A DNA stretch of 64,000 nt, from the NCBI GenBank assembly GCA_009697105.1, contig SIAQ01000002.1, forward strand, positions 1 to 64,000, in the 5' to 3' direction. Shown here piece after piece: positions 28,206 through 33,125 of the stretch (position 1 is the stretch's first letter; every line of letters starts with the position of its first letter). The notes under the pieces are model-generated. The model saw only the letters and a list, made by a program, of their open reading frames with translations, was not told the origin of the DNA and searched no databases. Source of the DNA: Gemmataceae bacterium (GTDB taxonomy: Bacteria > Planctomycetota > Planctomycetia > Gemmatales > Gemmataceae). The translations under genes and the position numbers were made by a program.

Positions 28206-28240
28206 ATCTCAAACCACCCTCCGTTTGGACTCTTTTGAAT

Positions 28241-30628
28241 ATGCGACGATTCATCCTTGCAGTCTCTTCGTTTCTGGTCCTCGGCGGCATCGTGATTGGC
28301 GCACGGCGAGCCGACGCACAACCCGCGATTTCAGCGAAGGCGAACGAGCCGATCGAGAAGATCGTCGTGCCGTTCTTGAACAAGCACTGTGTGCAATGTC
28401 ACGGTCCGAAGAAGAAAAACGCCGACCTTGTGTTACACATCTACGCCGATGCGAAGTCGATTCTGAAAGACCGCAAGCGCTGGCATGAAGTGTTGCGCAT
28501 GGTGCACATGGGCGAGATGCCGCCGGTGAAGCAGCCGCGGCCCGATCTCAAGGACACCGATGCGTTCCTCAAGGCGGTGAACGATCTCTTTACGTTGGCG
28601 GATTCCTCGGGGCCCCGCGATCCGGGCCGCGTGACGATGCGGCGACTTAATCGCACGGAGTACAACAACACGATCCGCGATCTCGTCGGCGTCGATTTCA
28701 AACCGGCGGACGACTTCCCGGCCGACGATGTTGGCCACGGTTTCGACAACATCGGCGATGTGCTGTCGCTCTCACCGGTGTTGATGGAGCGCTACCTCGC
28801 CGCCGCTGAAACGATCACGCAACAGGCGATTCTCGTCGGCACGGCGCCGAAGCCGCCGACGCGCACGGTCATCTCGCGCTTCACCGAGCCAAGCGTGCCG
28901 AACCCGGACAAAGTGGGTAAGTTCCGCGCGATCACGCAGACCAAGATTCCGCTGCACACGCAGCAAAACCTCACGCAGGAGGGCGAATTCAAGGCTCGCA
29001 TCCGTGGTTATGGCGTGCAAGTCGGCACGGAACCGATCAAAATCGCGCTGACTATCAACGGCAAGCAGGTCCAAGTTTTCGAGGTTAATGCGAAAGACCC
29101 GAAGCTGCCGCAGTCCTACGAGGTGAAACTCGAACTTGCCAAAGGCCCGCAGCGCATGGGCGCGGTGTTGCTCAATGAGGGTAAAGACGAAGCGAGCAAG
29201 AAAGACCGCACCTTCATGCTCGAGATGTTCCAACTCGAAGGCCCGCTTGACACCAGGCCGATCCCGCACAAAAAGATCATGGCCCACAAAGAGGGTGCCG
29301 CCAAGCCCGATGCGGCGCGCGAGATTCTTACGCGCTTTGTATCGAAGGCATATCGCCGACCGGTTACTAAGGCCGAGGTGGATCGCTTGATTGGACTCGT
29401 CGAGAAAACGGAAAAAGCGGGCGAACCCTGGGAGGCCGGCATTCAGATCGCGCTGCAAGCCGTTCTGTGCTCGCCGAAGTTCTTGTTCCGCGTCGAACTC
29501 GACCATCGGCCCGATAGCAAAGACCCGCACCCGATCGACGAATATCAACTCGCCTCACGGCTATCGTACTTCCTGTGGAGCACGATGCCCGACGACGAGT
29601 TGCTCGATTTGGCAGCCAAGAACCAACTGCACGCGAACCTCGAAACGCAAGCGAAACGCATGCTGGCCGACCCGCGCTCGTATGCGATGGTCGAAAACTT
29701 TGCCGGGCAATGGTTGCAGTTGCGATTGCTCAAGTCGCACGCGCCGGATGCGAAGTTGTTTCCCGATTTCGATGAATCGCTGCGCCGGGCGATGATCAAG
29801 GAAACCGAATTATTCTTCAACGCCATCATGAAGGAAGACCGCAACATCCTCGACCTGATCGATAGCAATTTCAGCTTCATGAACGAACGACTCGCACGCC
29901 ATTATGGCATCGCCGACACGAACGGCAATCGGCTGTACCAGAAGCCGATCACCAAGCCGGGCACGCCGTTCGTGCGTAAGTTCGGCGGCGGCGGCGAGGG
30001 AAGCGACCAGTTCGTCCGCGTGACGTTCGCCGACAACGAGCGCGGCGGTATCCTGACGCATGCGAGCATTCTGACGCTGACCTCGAACCCGACGCGCACG
30101 TCGCCGGTGAAGCGAGGCAAATGGGTATTGGAGCAAGTGCTCGGCACGCCGCCCCCGCCCCCGCCGCCCAACGTGCCCGAACTCGAAGAGAAGGGCGTGC
30201 TGAAGGGCACGCTGCGCGAACGCATGGAGCAGCATCGCAAGAACCCGGCGTGCACCAACTGCCACAATCGCCTCGATCCACCGGGCTTCGCGTTCGAGAA
30301 TTACAACGCGATTGGCAAGTTCCGTTCCAAGGAAGGTGAGCATCCGATCGACGCTTCGGGCGAACTGCCTGGCGGACAGAAGTTCAACGGGCCGAAGGAA
30401 CTCAAGCAGATCTTGCTACAGAATAACGAGCTGTTCAGCCGAAATCTGACCGAGAAGATGATGACCTATGGCATCGGCAGGGGTCTGGAATACTACGATA
30501 AATCGGCCGTGGACCGGATCGTCACCGTGCTCGCCAAAAACGATTTCCGCTTTTCCACCCTGGTGGTCGAGATAACCAAAAGCGATCCCTTCCGCATGCG
30601 ACGTGGCAAGGACCAAAAGGACAACTAG
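28241..30628 (+). CDS. Planctomycete cytochrome c / DUF1587-DUF1592-DUF1588-DUF1585 protein
   Basis: Encodes 795 residues from MRRFILAVSSFLVLGGIVIG (signal peptide). A cytochrome c-like motif HCVQCHG (Cys50, Cys53, His54) opens the mature protein. Then DUF1587 (RRLNRTEYNNTIRDLVGVDF), DUF1592 (YQLASRLSYFLWSTMPDDEL), DUF1588 (ACTNCHNRLDPPGFAFENYN, a second CxxCH) and DUF1585 (FSRNLTEKMMTYGIGRGLEY) follow in the standard order. These proteins always accompany DUF1552 proteins; a role in extracellular polymer oxidation is suspected but unproven. The last codons (FRMRRGKDQKDN) recur before the DUF1552 gene. Confidence 0.92.
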   Translation: MRRFILAVSSFLVLGGIVIGARRADAQPAISAKANEPIEKIVVPFLNKHCVQCHGPKKKNADLVLHIYADAKSILKDRKRWHEVLRMVHMGEMPPVKQPRPDLKDTDAFLKAVNDLFTLADSSGPRDPGRVTMRRLNRTEYNNTIRDLVGVDFKPADDFPADDVGHGFDNIGDVLSLSPVLMERYLAAAETITQQAILVGTAPKPPTRTVISRFTEPSVPNPDKVGKFRAITQTKIPLHTQQNLTQEGEFKARIRGYGVQVGTEPIKIALTINGKQVQVFEVNAKDPKLPQSYEVKLELAKGPQRMGAVLLNEGKDEASKKDRTFMLEMFQLEGPLDTRPIPHKKIMAHKEGAAKPDAAREILTRFVSKAYRRPVTKAEVDRLIGLVEKTEKAGEPWEAGIQIALQAVLCSPKFLFRVELDHRPDSKDPHPIDEYQLASRLSYFLWSTMPDDELLDLAAKNQLHANLETQAKRMLADPRSYAMVENFAGQWLQLRLLKSHAPDAKLFPDFDESLRRAMIKETELFFNAIMKEDRNILDLIDSNFSFMNERLARHYGIADTNGNRLYQKPITKPGTPFVRKFGGGGEGSDQFVRVTFADNERGGILTHASILTLTSNPTRTSPVKRGKWVLEQVLGTPPPPPPPNVPELEEKGVLKGTLRERMEQHRKNPACTNCHNRLDPPGFAFENYNAIGKFRSKEGEHPIDASGELPGGQKFNGPKELKQILLQNNELFSRNLTEKMMTYGIGRGLEYYDKSAVDRIVTVLAKNDFRFSTLVVEITKSDPFRMRRGKDQKDN
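30589..30619 (+). repeat. Direct repeat R1 flanking the Rpn nuclease gene
   Basis: CTTCCGCATGCGACGTGGCA and AGGACCAAAAG form the coding 3' end of the DUF1592 gene; a copy with two mismatches lies at 31759-31789. Confidence 0.85.
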
Positions 30629-30653
30629 CCGAAGCGTTAACGCGAGATACGCC

Positions 30654-31604
30654 ATGACCGATGACAGCGACAGCCCGTGGAAAGACTCGCTGGATAAGTA
30701 CCTGGCCGAGTTCTTCGAGCTTTGCCTGCTGGAAATTTTTGCGCAGATTGAGTGGATCGTCGGTTACGAAGCACTCGACAGTGAATTGCGTAAACTCGTG
30801 CCTCGTTCACGGACGGGGAATCAGCATCTGGATCGGCTGTACCGAGTGACGCTGAAGAACGGGCGCAAGGCGGTACTGCTGATTCACATCGAAATTCAAG
30901 CGCAGAAAGACAAGCAGTTCGGCAAGCGGATGCTAAGATATCGTTGCGCGTTGCATTTGAAGTTCCAACTGCCGATCGTGAGCGTGGCGATCTTGGCGGA
31001 CGAGAGCAAGGATTGGCGACCGAGCGAGCACGAGGAATCGGTGCTGGGATTTGGCTTAAAGCTGACGATGGCGACGGTGAAATTGCAGGATTATGCGGAT
31101 CGCATCGACGAGTTGGAGGCGAGCGACAATCCGTTCGCATCGGTGATCCTGGCCCATCTGAAAGCGCAAGCGACGAAGCACGACCCAGAGAGCCGAGCGA
31201 CGTGGAAGGTGCGATTCATCCGCAATCTGTACGAACGGAAATTCAGCAAGGAACGAGTGAAGGAACTGTTTCGCCTGATCGATTGGCTGATGCAATTGCC
31301 GGACGATTGGGACAAAGTCGTTGAAGAGGAAATCGACAAATTTGAAAAGGAGAAGAAGATGCCGTATGTCACCGGAATCGAACGTCGCGCAATCGCACGC
31401 GGCGAAGCGCGCGGCGAGTTGGTCGGCAACTTGCTGACGGCGATGGAGTTGCGCTTTGGCGGTGCGAATCGGCAGGACGTCGCAGCCGTTCGCAAGATCG
31501 ACGACGTGGGGGCGCTTAGCCGCCTCGTCGAATTTGCAAAGAAAGCCGAGACGCTGGAGCAAGTGCGTGCCGAGTTGAAGCTGGTTTCCAAGCCGAAGCG
31601 ATGA
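30654..31604 (+). CDS. Rpn/YhgA-family recombination-promoting nuclease-like protein
   Basis: Encodes 316 residues from the ATG at 30654. N-terminal PD-(D/E)XK marks are DSPWKDSLDKYLAEFFELCL, NQHLDRLYRVTLKNGRKAVL and LLIHIEIQAQKDKQFGKRML (HxExQ). The rest is helical (YADRIDELEASDNPFASVIL, MPYVTGIERRAIARGEARGE). Similar proteins in Gemmata-like genomes are multicopy and annotated as Rpn or DUF4351 relatives. It separates the DUF1592 gene from its usual DUF1552 partner and lies between two direct repeats, which suggests insertion. Confidence 0.75.
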   Translation: MTDDSDSPWKDSLDKYLAEFFELCLLEIFAQIEWIVGYEALDSELRKLVPRSRTGNQHLDRLYRVTLKNGRKAVLLIHIEIQAQKDKQFGKRMLRYRCALHLKFQLPIVSVAILADESKDWRPSEHEESVLGFGLKLTMATVKLQDYADRIDELEASDNPFASVILAHLKAQATKHDPESRATWKVRFIRNLYERKFSKERVKELFRLIDWLMQLPDDWDKVVEEEIDKFEKEKKMPYVTGIERRAIARGEARGELVGNLLTAMELRFGGANRQDVAAVRKIDDVGALSRLVEFAKKAETLEQVRAELKLVSKPKR

Positions 31605-31758
31605 TAATGCACTTCGGTTCAGCCAGCATAACCACACCCCCGAAAATCCTGCGGATTGCCATATTTGACCTTTCGACTGGACGAAAAACGTGGTATCCTA
31701 TGTAATTAAGCATGAGTATCCCGCCGGCTTTCGTTTTTCGCCTTACCCCACCGATATT

Positions 31759-31789
31759 CTTCCGCATGCGACGCGGAAAGGACCAAAAG
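31759..31789 (+). repeat. Direct repeat R2, supplying the DUF1552 leader
   Basis: CTTCCGCATGCGACGCGGAA and AGGACCAAAAG match R1 at 30589-30619 with two differences. R2 now carries the Shine-Dalgarno-like AAAGGACC directly before the ATG at 31791. Confidence 0.85.
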
Positions 31790-31790
31790 A

Positions 31791-33125
31791 ATGACTAACC
31801 ATTTGTCACGCCGAACTGTGCTCAAAGGCCTCGGTGCTTCTATTGCCCTGCCCTGGCTCGAAGCGATGGGCCCCTTGCAAGCGTGGGCCAGTCAGGCGCC
31901 GGCGGCGAATCGCGTGCCGACTCGCGTCGCCTTCTTGTACGTTCCGAACGGCAAGAACATGGCCGACTGGACCCCGACCGCCGAAGGCACCGGCTTCACG
32001 CTGCCTCGCATCCTCGAACCGCTGGCGGAAGTGCGCGAGTACGTCAACGTGCTCACCGGCCTGACCGCCGACAAGGCCCGCGCGAATGGCGACGGCGCCG
32101 GCGATCACGCTCGCGCCATGGCTGCCTTCCTCACCGGCGCGCAACCGCGCAAGACCGATGGCACCGACATCCGCTGCGGGACGTCTGTCGATCAGGTCGC
32201 CGCGACCAGGCTTGGCAACGAAACTCGCTTGTCGTCACTTGAAATCGGTGCCGATCCCAGCGCCATGGCCGGCAACTGCGACTCCGGCTACAGCTGTGTT
32301 TACTCCTCCACGATCTCCTGGCGATCCGCCACGACGCCCGTGCCCAAGCTTAACAATCCGCGTTTGATCTTTGAACGTTTGTTCGCGACAGGCAACGACG
32401 CCGATCGCGCTCGCCGGGAACGCAATCGCCGCAGCATTCTCGATTTCGTCCGCGAGGACGCCAACACGCTCGTGCCGAACCTCAGCGCCAACGACCGCCG
32501 ACGGATGGATGAATATCTGACATCGATCCGCGATATCGAGCAACGCATCGAACGCGCCGCCCGCATGCCCGAATCCGCACGCCCGACGATGACGCAGCCG
32601 ACCGGCATTCCGGGCAACTACCAGGATCACATTCGCCTACTCGCCGATCTCTTGGTCCTCGCCTTCCAGGCCGACATCACCCGCGTCAGCACGTTTGTTT
32701 TCGCCAACGAAGGCAGCAATCGGCCCTACTCGGTCATCGGCGTGCCCGAAGGCCATCACGATCTTTCGCATCACGGCAACGACCGCGCGAAGATGACGAA
32801 GATCGCGAACATCAACCGCTTCCATGTCACGCAACTCGCCTACATGCTCAACCGCATGAAGAACATCCGCGAAGGCGAAGGCACGCTGCTCGACAATTGC
32901 ATGATCGCCTACGGTTCGGGCAACAGCGACGGCAACCGCCACAACCACGACGACTTGCCGATCCTACAAATCGGTCGCGGCTCCGGCACGATCCGCACCG
33001 GTCGCCACCTCCGCTACGCCAACAACACGCCGCTCAACAACCTTTGGCTGTCGATGCTCGATCGCGTCAACAGTGCCGTTGACCGTCTCGGCGATAGCAG
33101 CGGTCGCCTGGCGAATCTGGTGTGA
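31791..33125 (+). CDS. DUF1552 protein
   Basis: Encodes 444 residues. The N-terminus has a twin-arginine-like start (HLSRRTVLKGLGASIALPWL). Family segments are RVAFLYVPNGKNMADWTPTA, AMAAFLTGAQPRKTDGTDIR, CDSGYSCVYSSTISWRSATT, and VSTFVFANEGSNRPYSVIGV with a GHHDLSHHG stretch. DUF1552 proteins are sulfatase/DUF1501-like in fold, exported, and always paired with DUF1592 cytochrome proteins. Function is unknown. Confidence 0.92.
   Translation: MTNHLSRRTVLKGLGASIALPWLEAMGPLQAWASQAPAANRVPTRVAFLYVPNGKNMADWTPTAEGTGFTLPRILEPLAEVREYVNVLTGLTADKARANGDGAGDHARAMAAFLTGAQPRKTDGTDIRCGTSVDQVAATRLGNETRLSSLEIGADPSAMAGNCDSGYSCVYSSTISWRSATTPVPKLNNPRLIFERLFATGNDADRARRERNRRSILDFVREDANTLVPNLSANDRRRMDEYLTSIRDIEQRIERAARMPESARPTMTQPTGIPGNYQDHIRLLADLLVLAFQADITRVSTFVFANEGSNRPYSVIGVPEGHHDLSHHGNDRAKMTKIANINRFHVTQLAYMLNRMKNIREGEGTLLDNCMIAYGSGNSDGNRHNHDDLPILQIGRGSGTIRTGRHLRYANNTPLNNLWLSMLDRVNSAVDRLGDSSGRLANLV

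Follow-up and report, generated by a model that had tools for sequence, protein, structure and literature searches.

In the planctomycete genome studied here (G000, a 5.4-Mb draft), a DUF1592-type gene and a DUF1552 gene are separated by an rpn-like gene with similar sequences on both sides, which raises the question of how this gene came to lie there and whether its own product made the duplication. A first-pass annotation, made from the sequence alone, had noticed that about 31 bp at the end of the DUF1592 gene recur before the DUF1552 gene, and had proposed that the cassette inserted with target duplication or arose by recombination promoted by the Rpn product. In the window, the 64,000-nucleotide stretch of contig SIAQ01000002.1 that was analysed, the genes follow in the order DUF1592, rpn, a 154-bp spacer and DUF1552 (Table 1). 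The repeat was indeed present and extends over 42 bp, with 36 of the 42 positions identical and no gap, where about 9e-9 such matches would be expected by chance in 2.5 kb. Up to the ATG of DUF1552, the right copy belongs to no present-day gene; it directly precedes and overlaps this start and supplies the DUF1552 ribosome-binding site, as had been suggested. Read in the DUF1592 frame, it still encodes FFRMRRGKDQKND, followed by a stop codon within the DUF1552 start region.

Table 1. Features of the DUF1592/rpn/DUF1552 region, in coordinates of the window.
Feature	Position	Strand	Basis and remarks
DUF1592-type gene (DUF1592/PSD)	28235..30628	+	Pfam: PSD2-PSD5, PSCyt1, PSCyt3; upstream half of the putative ancestral overlapping pair
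Left repeat copy, the DUF1592 C-terminus (..FRMRRGKDQKDN, stop)	30589..30630	+	Compared with the single-copy sites L060 and L062
rpn gene (RpnL), 316 aa, ATG at 30654	30654..31604	+	Predicted PD-(D/E)XK-like N-terminal core; invariant D60, E80, Q82, R92
Internal Shine-Dalgarno AAGGAG inside rpn	31347..31352	+	SD-like stretch at this place in 14/14 rpn copies of the genus
Predicted RpnS, 81 aa, in-frame internal ATG start	31359..31604	+	ATG or GTG at the start in 14/14
Spacer, candidate DUF1552 promoter region	31605..31758	+	Found only in G000 and G013; conservation
Right repeat copy, fossil DUF1592 end (FFRMRRGKDQKND, stop) with DUF1552 ribosome-binding site and start	31759..31800	+	Identical in G000 and G013
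DUF1552 (HXXSHH) gene	31791..33125	+	Pfam; orthologues found; downstream half of the putative ancestral pair

Related genomes without the rpn gene were expected to carry a single copy of the repeat, and this was found. In two congeneric genomes, G061 (locus L060) and G062 (L062), neither of which gave an rpn match at E<=1e-40, the repeat is present once and the DUF1592 stop overlaps the DUF1552 start by 8 bases. The junction of L060 reads ...CGCATGCGCCGAGGAAAGGACCAAAAGAATGACTAG, so that the end of DUF1592 passes straight into DUF1552. None of the genomes compared had both copies without the nuclease gene. Compared with these single-copy sites, the left copy in the window has an altered version of the former DUF1552 start codon, AATG having become GACA. 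The sister genome G013 (L059) contains the rpn gene and both repeat copies; its insert and copies are about 90% identical to those of G000 at the nucleotide level, and the DUF1592 proteins are 95% identical. Since G013 shares the gene and both copies while G061 and G062 have one copy, the comparison indicates that rpn entered an overlapping DUF1592/DUF1552 junction before the split of G000 and G013. An assembly artefact of a single genome is not a suitable explanation, because G013 has the same arrangement at about 10% nucleotide difference. The event is old, so that the original insert no longer has sharp boundaries.

A survey of the order Gemmatales gave the direction of the change. DUF1592 lies directly upstream of DUF1552 at 89 of 99 further DUF1552 loci, in agreement with the earlier statement that the two genes are normally neighbours. 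The pair overlaps in 28 of these 89 cases, and in all overlapping pairs except one (27/28) an SD-like motif stands inside the DUF1592 end. Because the overlap is so widespread, it is taken as the older state and the insertion as the derived one. In a further congener, G054 (L218/L061, L215), DUF1592 and DUF1552 are on separate contigs with unrelated neighbours, and a GAAAGGACC leader is kept at DUF1552.

Assignment of the inserted gene to the Rpn family (YhgA-like) is reasonable, although its product scores below the curated thresholds: TIGR01784 was matched with E 3e-7 and 30 bits (cut-off 52.1), and PF04754 with 20.3-20.5 bits (cut-off 21). TIGR01784 was also matched by 11 of 12 relatives. 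Residues D60, E80, Q82 and R92 are invariant in the 12 relatives and are spaced by 20, 2 and 10 positions, compared with 19, 2 and 10 for the residues that matter in RpnA, D63, E82, Q84 and R94 (PMC5350276). An AlphaFold2 model of the whole protein reached a pLDDT of 83.8. Structural alignment of residues 1-147 (VIA-align 2) returned several rows of nucleases (EndoMS, Card1, EcoO109I, BspD6I) with Z from 4.3 to 6.8, and the predicted model had no Foldseek match at E<=0.001. Alignments at Z 4-7 are only suggestive of a PD-(D/E)XK-like N-terminal fold. PADLOC gave no match for the nuclease, and no convincing solved homologue was found by sequence search.

The gene also carries signals for a second, internal product. 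In all 14 rpn copies of the genus that were examined, an SD-like stretch precedes an ATG or GTG that occupies the same position in the alignment, and wherever the residue at the internal start is a valine its codon is GTG. No SD is evident at the full-length start at 30654. Some 14 residues downstream of the internal Met, four-residue repeats begin, and the rpn gene of G013 (L059) is longer than that of G000 by 72 bp, which is six four-residue units within the repeat region. An internal start with hypervariable four-residue repeats 8-20 residues after it is the hallmark of RpnL/RpnS genes (PMC10327210). Taken together, the signals observed suggest that this single gene forms a toxin-antitoxin unit, which would be expressed, toxic and possibly used in defence.

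To ask whether Rpn itself makes duplications of this kind, the other rpn loci of the genus can be consulted. At 13 of them no direct repeat longer than 13 bp was found between the flanks; the fourteenth is a fragment only. For the copy on C17 an empty site is available in G013 (C49), and no duplication was seen there. The loci on C52 and C6 were also compared with relatives, and their intergenic ends are too diverged and too rich in small repeats to place a junction. Thus, among the rpn loci examined, target duplication is present at the DUF1592/DUF1552 locus only. No inverted repeats were found in 30000-32500 of the window. The loci without comparable repeats and the C17 site without a duplication together speak against a self-mobilising Rpn element. 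Some rpn loci of G000 showed features of their own. A palindromic repeat some 120 bp long splits the rpn copy on C6 (L006 reverse complement, ~1381-1510); it matches dozens of sites in G013 and resembles a small mobile repeat. Immediately upstream of the copy on C52 (L004 reverse complement, ~1319-1464) stands a member of another repeat family, about 140 bp long, for which G013 gave many matches and G062 some. The copy on C142 (L003/L007), 66% identical over the matched part, is disrupted by a frameshift or stop, and rpn copies are therefore both gained and lost here.

The spacer behind rpn is strongly constrained together with the right copy. G000 and G013 differ in the spacer at 5 of 154 positions, and spacer and right copy together show 5 differences in 196 bp, where about 37 would be expected at a four-fold-site rate of 0.19. 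For comparison, 12-26% of the four-fold sites differ in the genes nearby (DUF1592, DUF1552 and DUF1501). Such constraint is expected of a leader or promoter of DUF1552, which is now cut off from DUF1592, and the conserved spacer probably drives DUF1552 as a candidate promoter. The sequence TGGTATCCT at 31691-31699 resembles an extended -10 element; a scan of the spacer found no standard sigma-70 promoter or terminator. A structured RNA was also considered and rejected, since the spacer folds no better than its shuffles (z 0.41). No match to the spacer was found at E<=0.001 in 93 other genomes of the family. Its segment 31640-31690 and positions 1657-1720 of L079, where a DUF1552 gene of another genus that stands alone is preceded by similar sequence, have in common the blocks CCGAAAATCCTGC, CGACTG and AAAACGTG in the same order (p ~0.006, L079 being one of seven loci compared). 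These blocks may belong to a common promoter and are a lead to the origin of the spacer.

Junctions of this kind have received other genes as well. As the SD-like motif of DUF1552 lies within the last DUF1592 codons, an insert spares both genes only if the overlap stretch stands on both sides of it, or if one of the genes rebuilds its end. At L217, a paralogous pair in G013, an FGE-sulfatase-like gene is inserted with GGAAAGGACCAAnnATGAA on both sides (p ~0.0005). At L063 (G041), the inserted DUF433 and DUF5615 genes are flanked on either side by a ribosome-binding motif (local similarity p ~0.02; right side against the L060 junction, p 0.002). These p-values, obtained by shuffling short stretches, are rough, and retained or convergent ribosome-binding sequence can add to the weaker ones; the similarity at L063 is weak and may be of this kind. 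Duplication is not the sole outcome, because at L068/L223 (G039) MazEF is inserted without duplication and the tail of DUF1592 is changed. In G080 a PDDEXK_3 gene stands between DUF1592 and DUF1552 (L298:2833-3378), and this pair need not have overlapped. The PDDEXK_3 gene is flanked by inverted CACAGAG-type repeats, and at L069, L073 and L078 the same gap is filled by similar palindromes in the absence of the gene.

The reading that we favour, with a probability of roughly 0.68, is that of an illegitimate insertion of rpn whose duplication was retained because DUF1552 has its ribosome-binding site encoded within the 3' end of DUF1592. In the common ancestor of G000 and G013 the two genes would have overlapped by 8 bases, and the RGKDQ codons near the DUF1592 end (GGAAAGGACCAA) would have doubled as the ribosome-binding site of DUF1552. 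As the empty sites show, about 42 bp of junction sequence remained on either side of the insert, and the duplication would have been kept because both genes needed this stretch, DUF1592 for its C-terminus and DUF1552 for its start signal. The left copy would later have lost its spare start codon, and the right copy would have been frozen as the DUF1552 leader behind the conserved spacer, the probable carrier of a promoter. The inserted gene would give the full-length nuclease RpnL from a weak start and the antitoxin RpnS from a strong internal start. Its insertion need not have been catalysed by Rpn. Retention of a duplicated overlap accounts for the rpn locus at DUF1592/DUF1552 and for the two non-Rpn inserts with motifs on both sides.

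The same arrangement could be explained by Rpn acting as the insertion enzyme, cutting the two strands about 40 bp apart, joining its own gene and leaving a target-site duplication after fill-in. In favour of this, rpn lies precisely between the copies, RpnA acts on DNA as an unspecific endonuclease and increases recombination that does not depend on RecA (PMC5350276), and rpnC entered the panC-panD gap twice (PMC5350276). Nevertheless, we regard this explanation as quite unlikely: the 13 other loci lack comparable repeats, the C17 empty site lacks a duplication, inserts other than Rpn show motif duplication at such junctions too, and a published survey found rpn genes without target-site duplications and argues against transposition (PMC10327210). 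The insertion of the cassette between the flank copies, as proposed in the first-pass annotation, is thus supported by the single-copy, overlapping empty sites, whereas Rpn-promoted recombination as the source of the duplication is not supported. Some part of Rpn in the insertion event is possible; nothing here requires it. It is very improbable that Rpn nucleases can place their own gene into translationally overlapping junctions and thereby create duplications of about 40 bp; if true, this would be a kind of gene mobility that has not been described for a PD-(D/E)XK nuclease acting without a partner transposase.

The duplication could also have come first, by slippage or unequal exchange in tandem, with rpn arriving later between the copies and adding no duplication of its own. 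The three changes in four bases at the spare start codon, found in both genomes, leave room for such a two-step history; however, no tandem duplication without an insert was found among the surveyed junctions, and this order of events is unlikely. Alternatively, rpn, spacer and right copy might have been imported together by recombination from a relative with rpn before DUF1552, with the crossover in shared junction sequence. The blocks in common with L079 fit an import, but no donor was found: the cassette occurs in no other of 102 genomes of the order at E<=1e-85, except for a 59% paralogue in G000 itself. Since the right copy, moreover, still carries the DUF1592 fossil, we consider an import distinctly unlikely. 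Finally, GAAAGGAC-type leaders recur at DUF1552 genes, and two similar flanks might be put down to chance or to convergent ribosome-binding sites. Against this stand the identity at 36 of 42 positions including the silent FFRMRRGKDQKND fossil and its stop, the exact geometry of the overlap and the single-copy sites L060 and L062, and chance or convergence can practically be dismissed.

With regard to known systems, the locus belongs to familiar kinds, since it combines a probable Rpn toxin-antitoxin gene with an insertion that duplicated its target, and is unusually clear as an example. Like other Rpn (PF04754/TIGR01784, COG5464) and RpnL/RpnS genes (PMC5350276, PMC10327210), the inserted gene has a predicted PD-(D/E)XK-like core with D-E-Q-R at matching spacing, an internal SD and start for a predicted small C-terminal protein, hypervariable four-residue repeats soon after this start and a patchy pattern of gain. 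It differs from them in its scores below the curated cut-offs and in the long target duplication at its flanks, which is said to be absent from published rpn genes. As with rpnC of Escherichia coli between panC and panD (PMC5350276), the insertion separated functionally linked operon neighbours; the target of rpnC was an intergenic gap, whereas here it was an overlapping stop and start of which 42 bp were duplicated. A literature search for insertions into overlapping genes with duplication of the junction found nothing relevant. Insertion sequences likewise have direct target copies on both sides, but the present insert is without terminal inverted repeats and other rpn loci are without repeats. 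The usual target duplication of an insertion sequence is far shorter than 42 bp.

The locus thus documents, with the states before and after resolved, how a selfish or defence-like gene can settle within a densely packed operon. If the second gene has its ribosome-binding site inside the first, an insert that duplicates this stretch would be tolerated, and a duplicated flank at such a junction is therefore not to be taken as a signature of transposition. At the level of start signals, the gene-within-gene layout of RpnL and RpnS is extended to a divergent branch of the planctomycetes. In different lineages, one operon junction has received an Rpn gene, MazEF, a DUF433/DUF5615 pair and a PDDEXK_3 gene.
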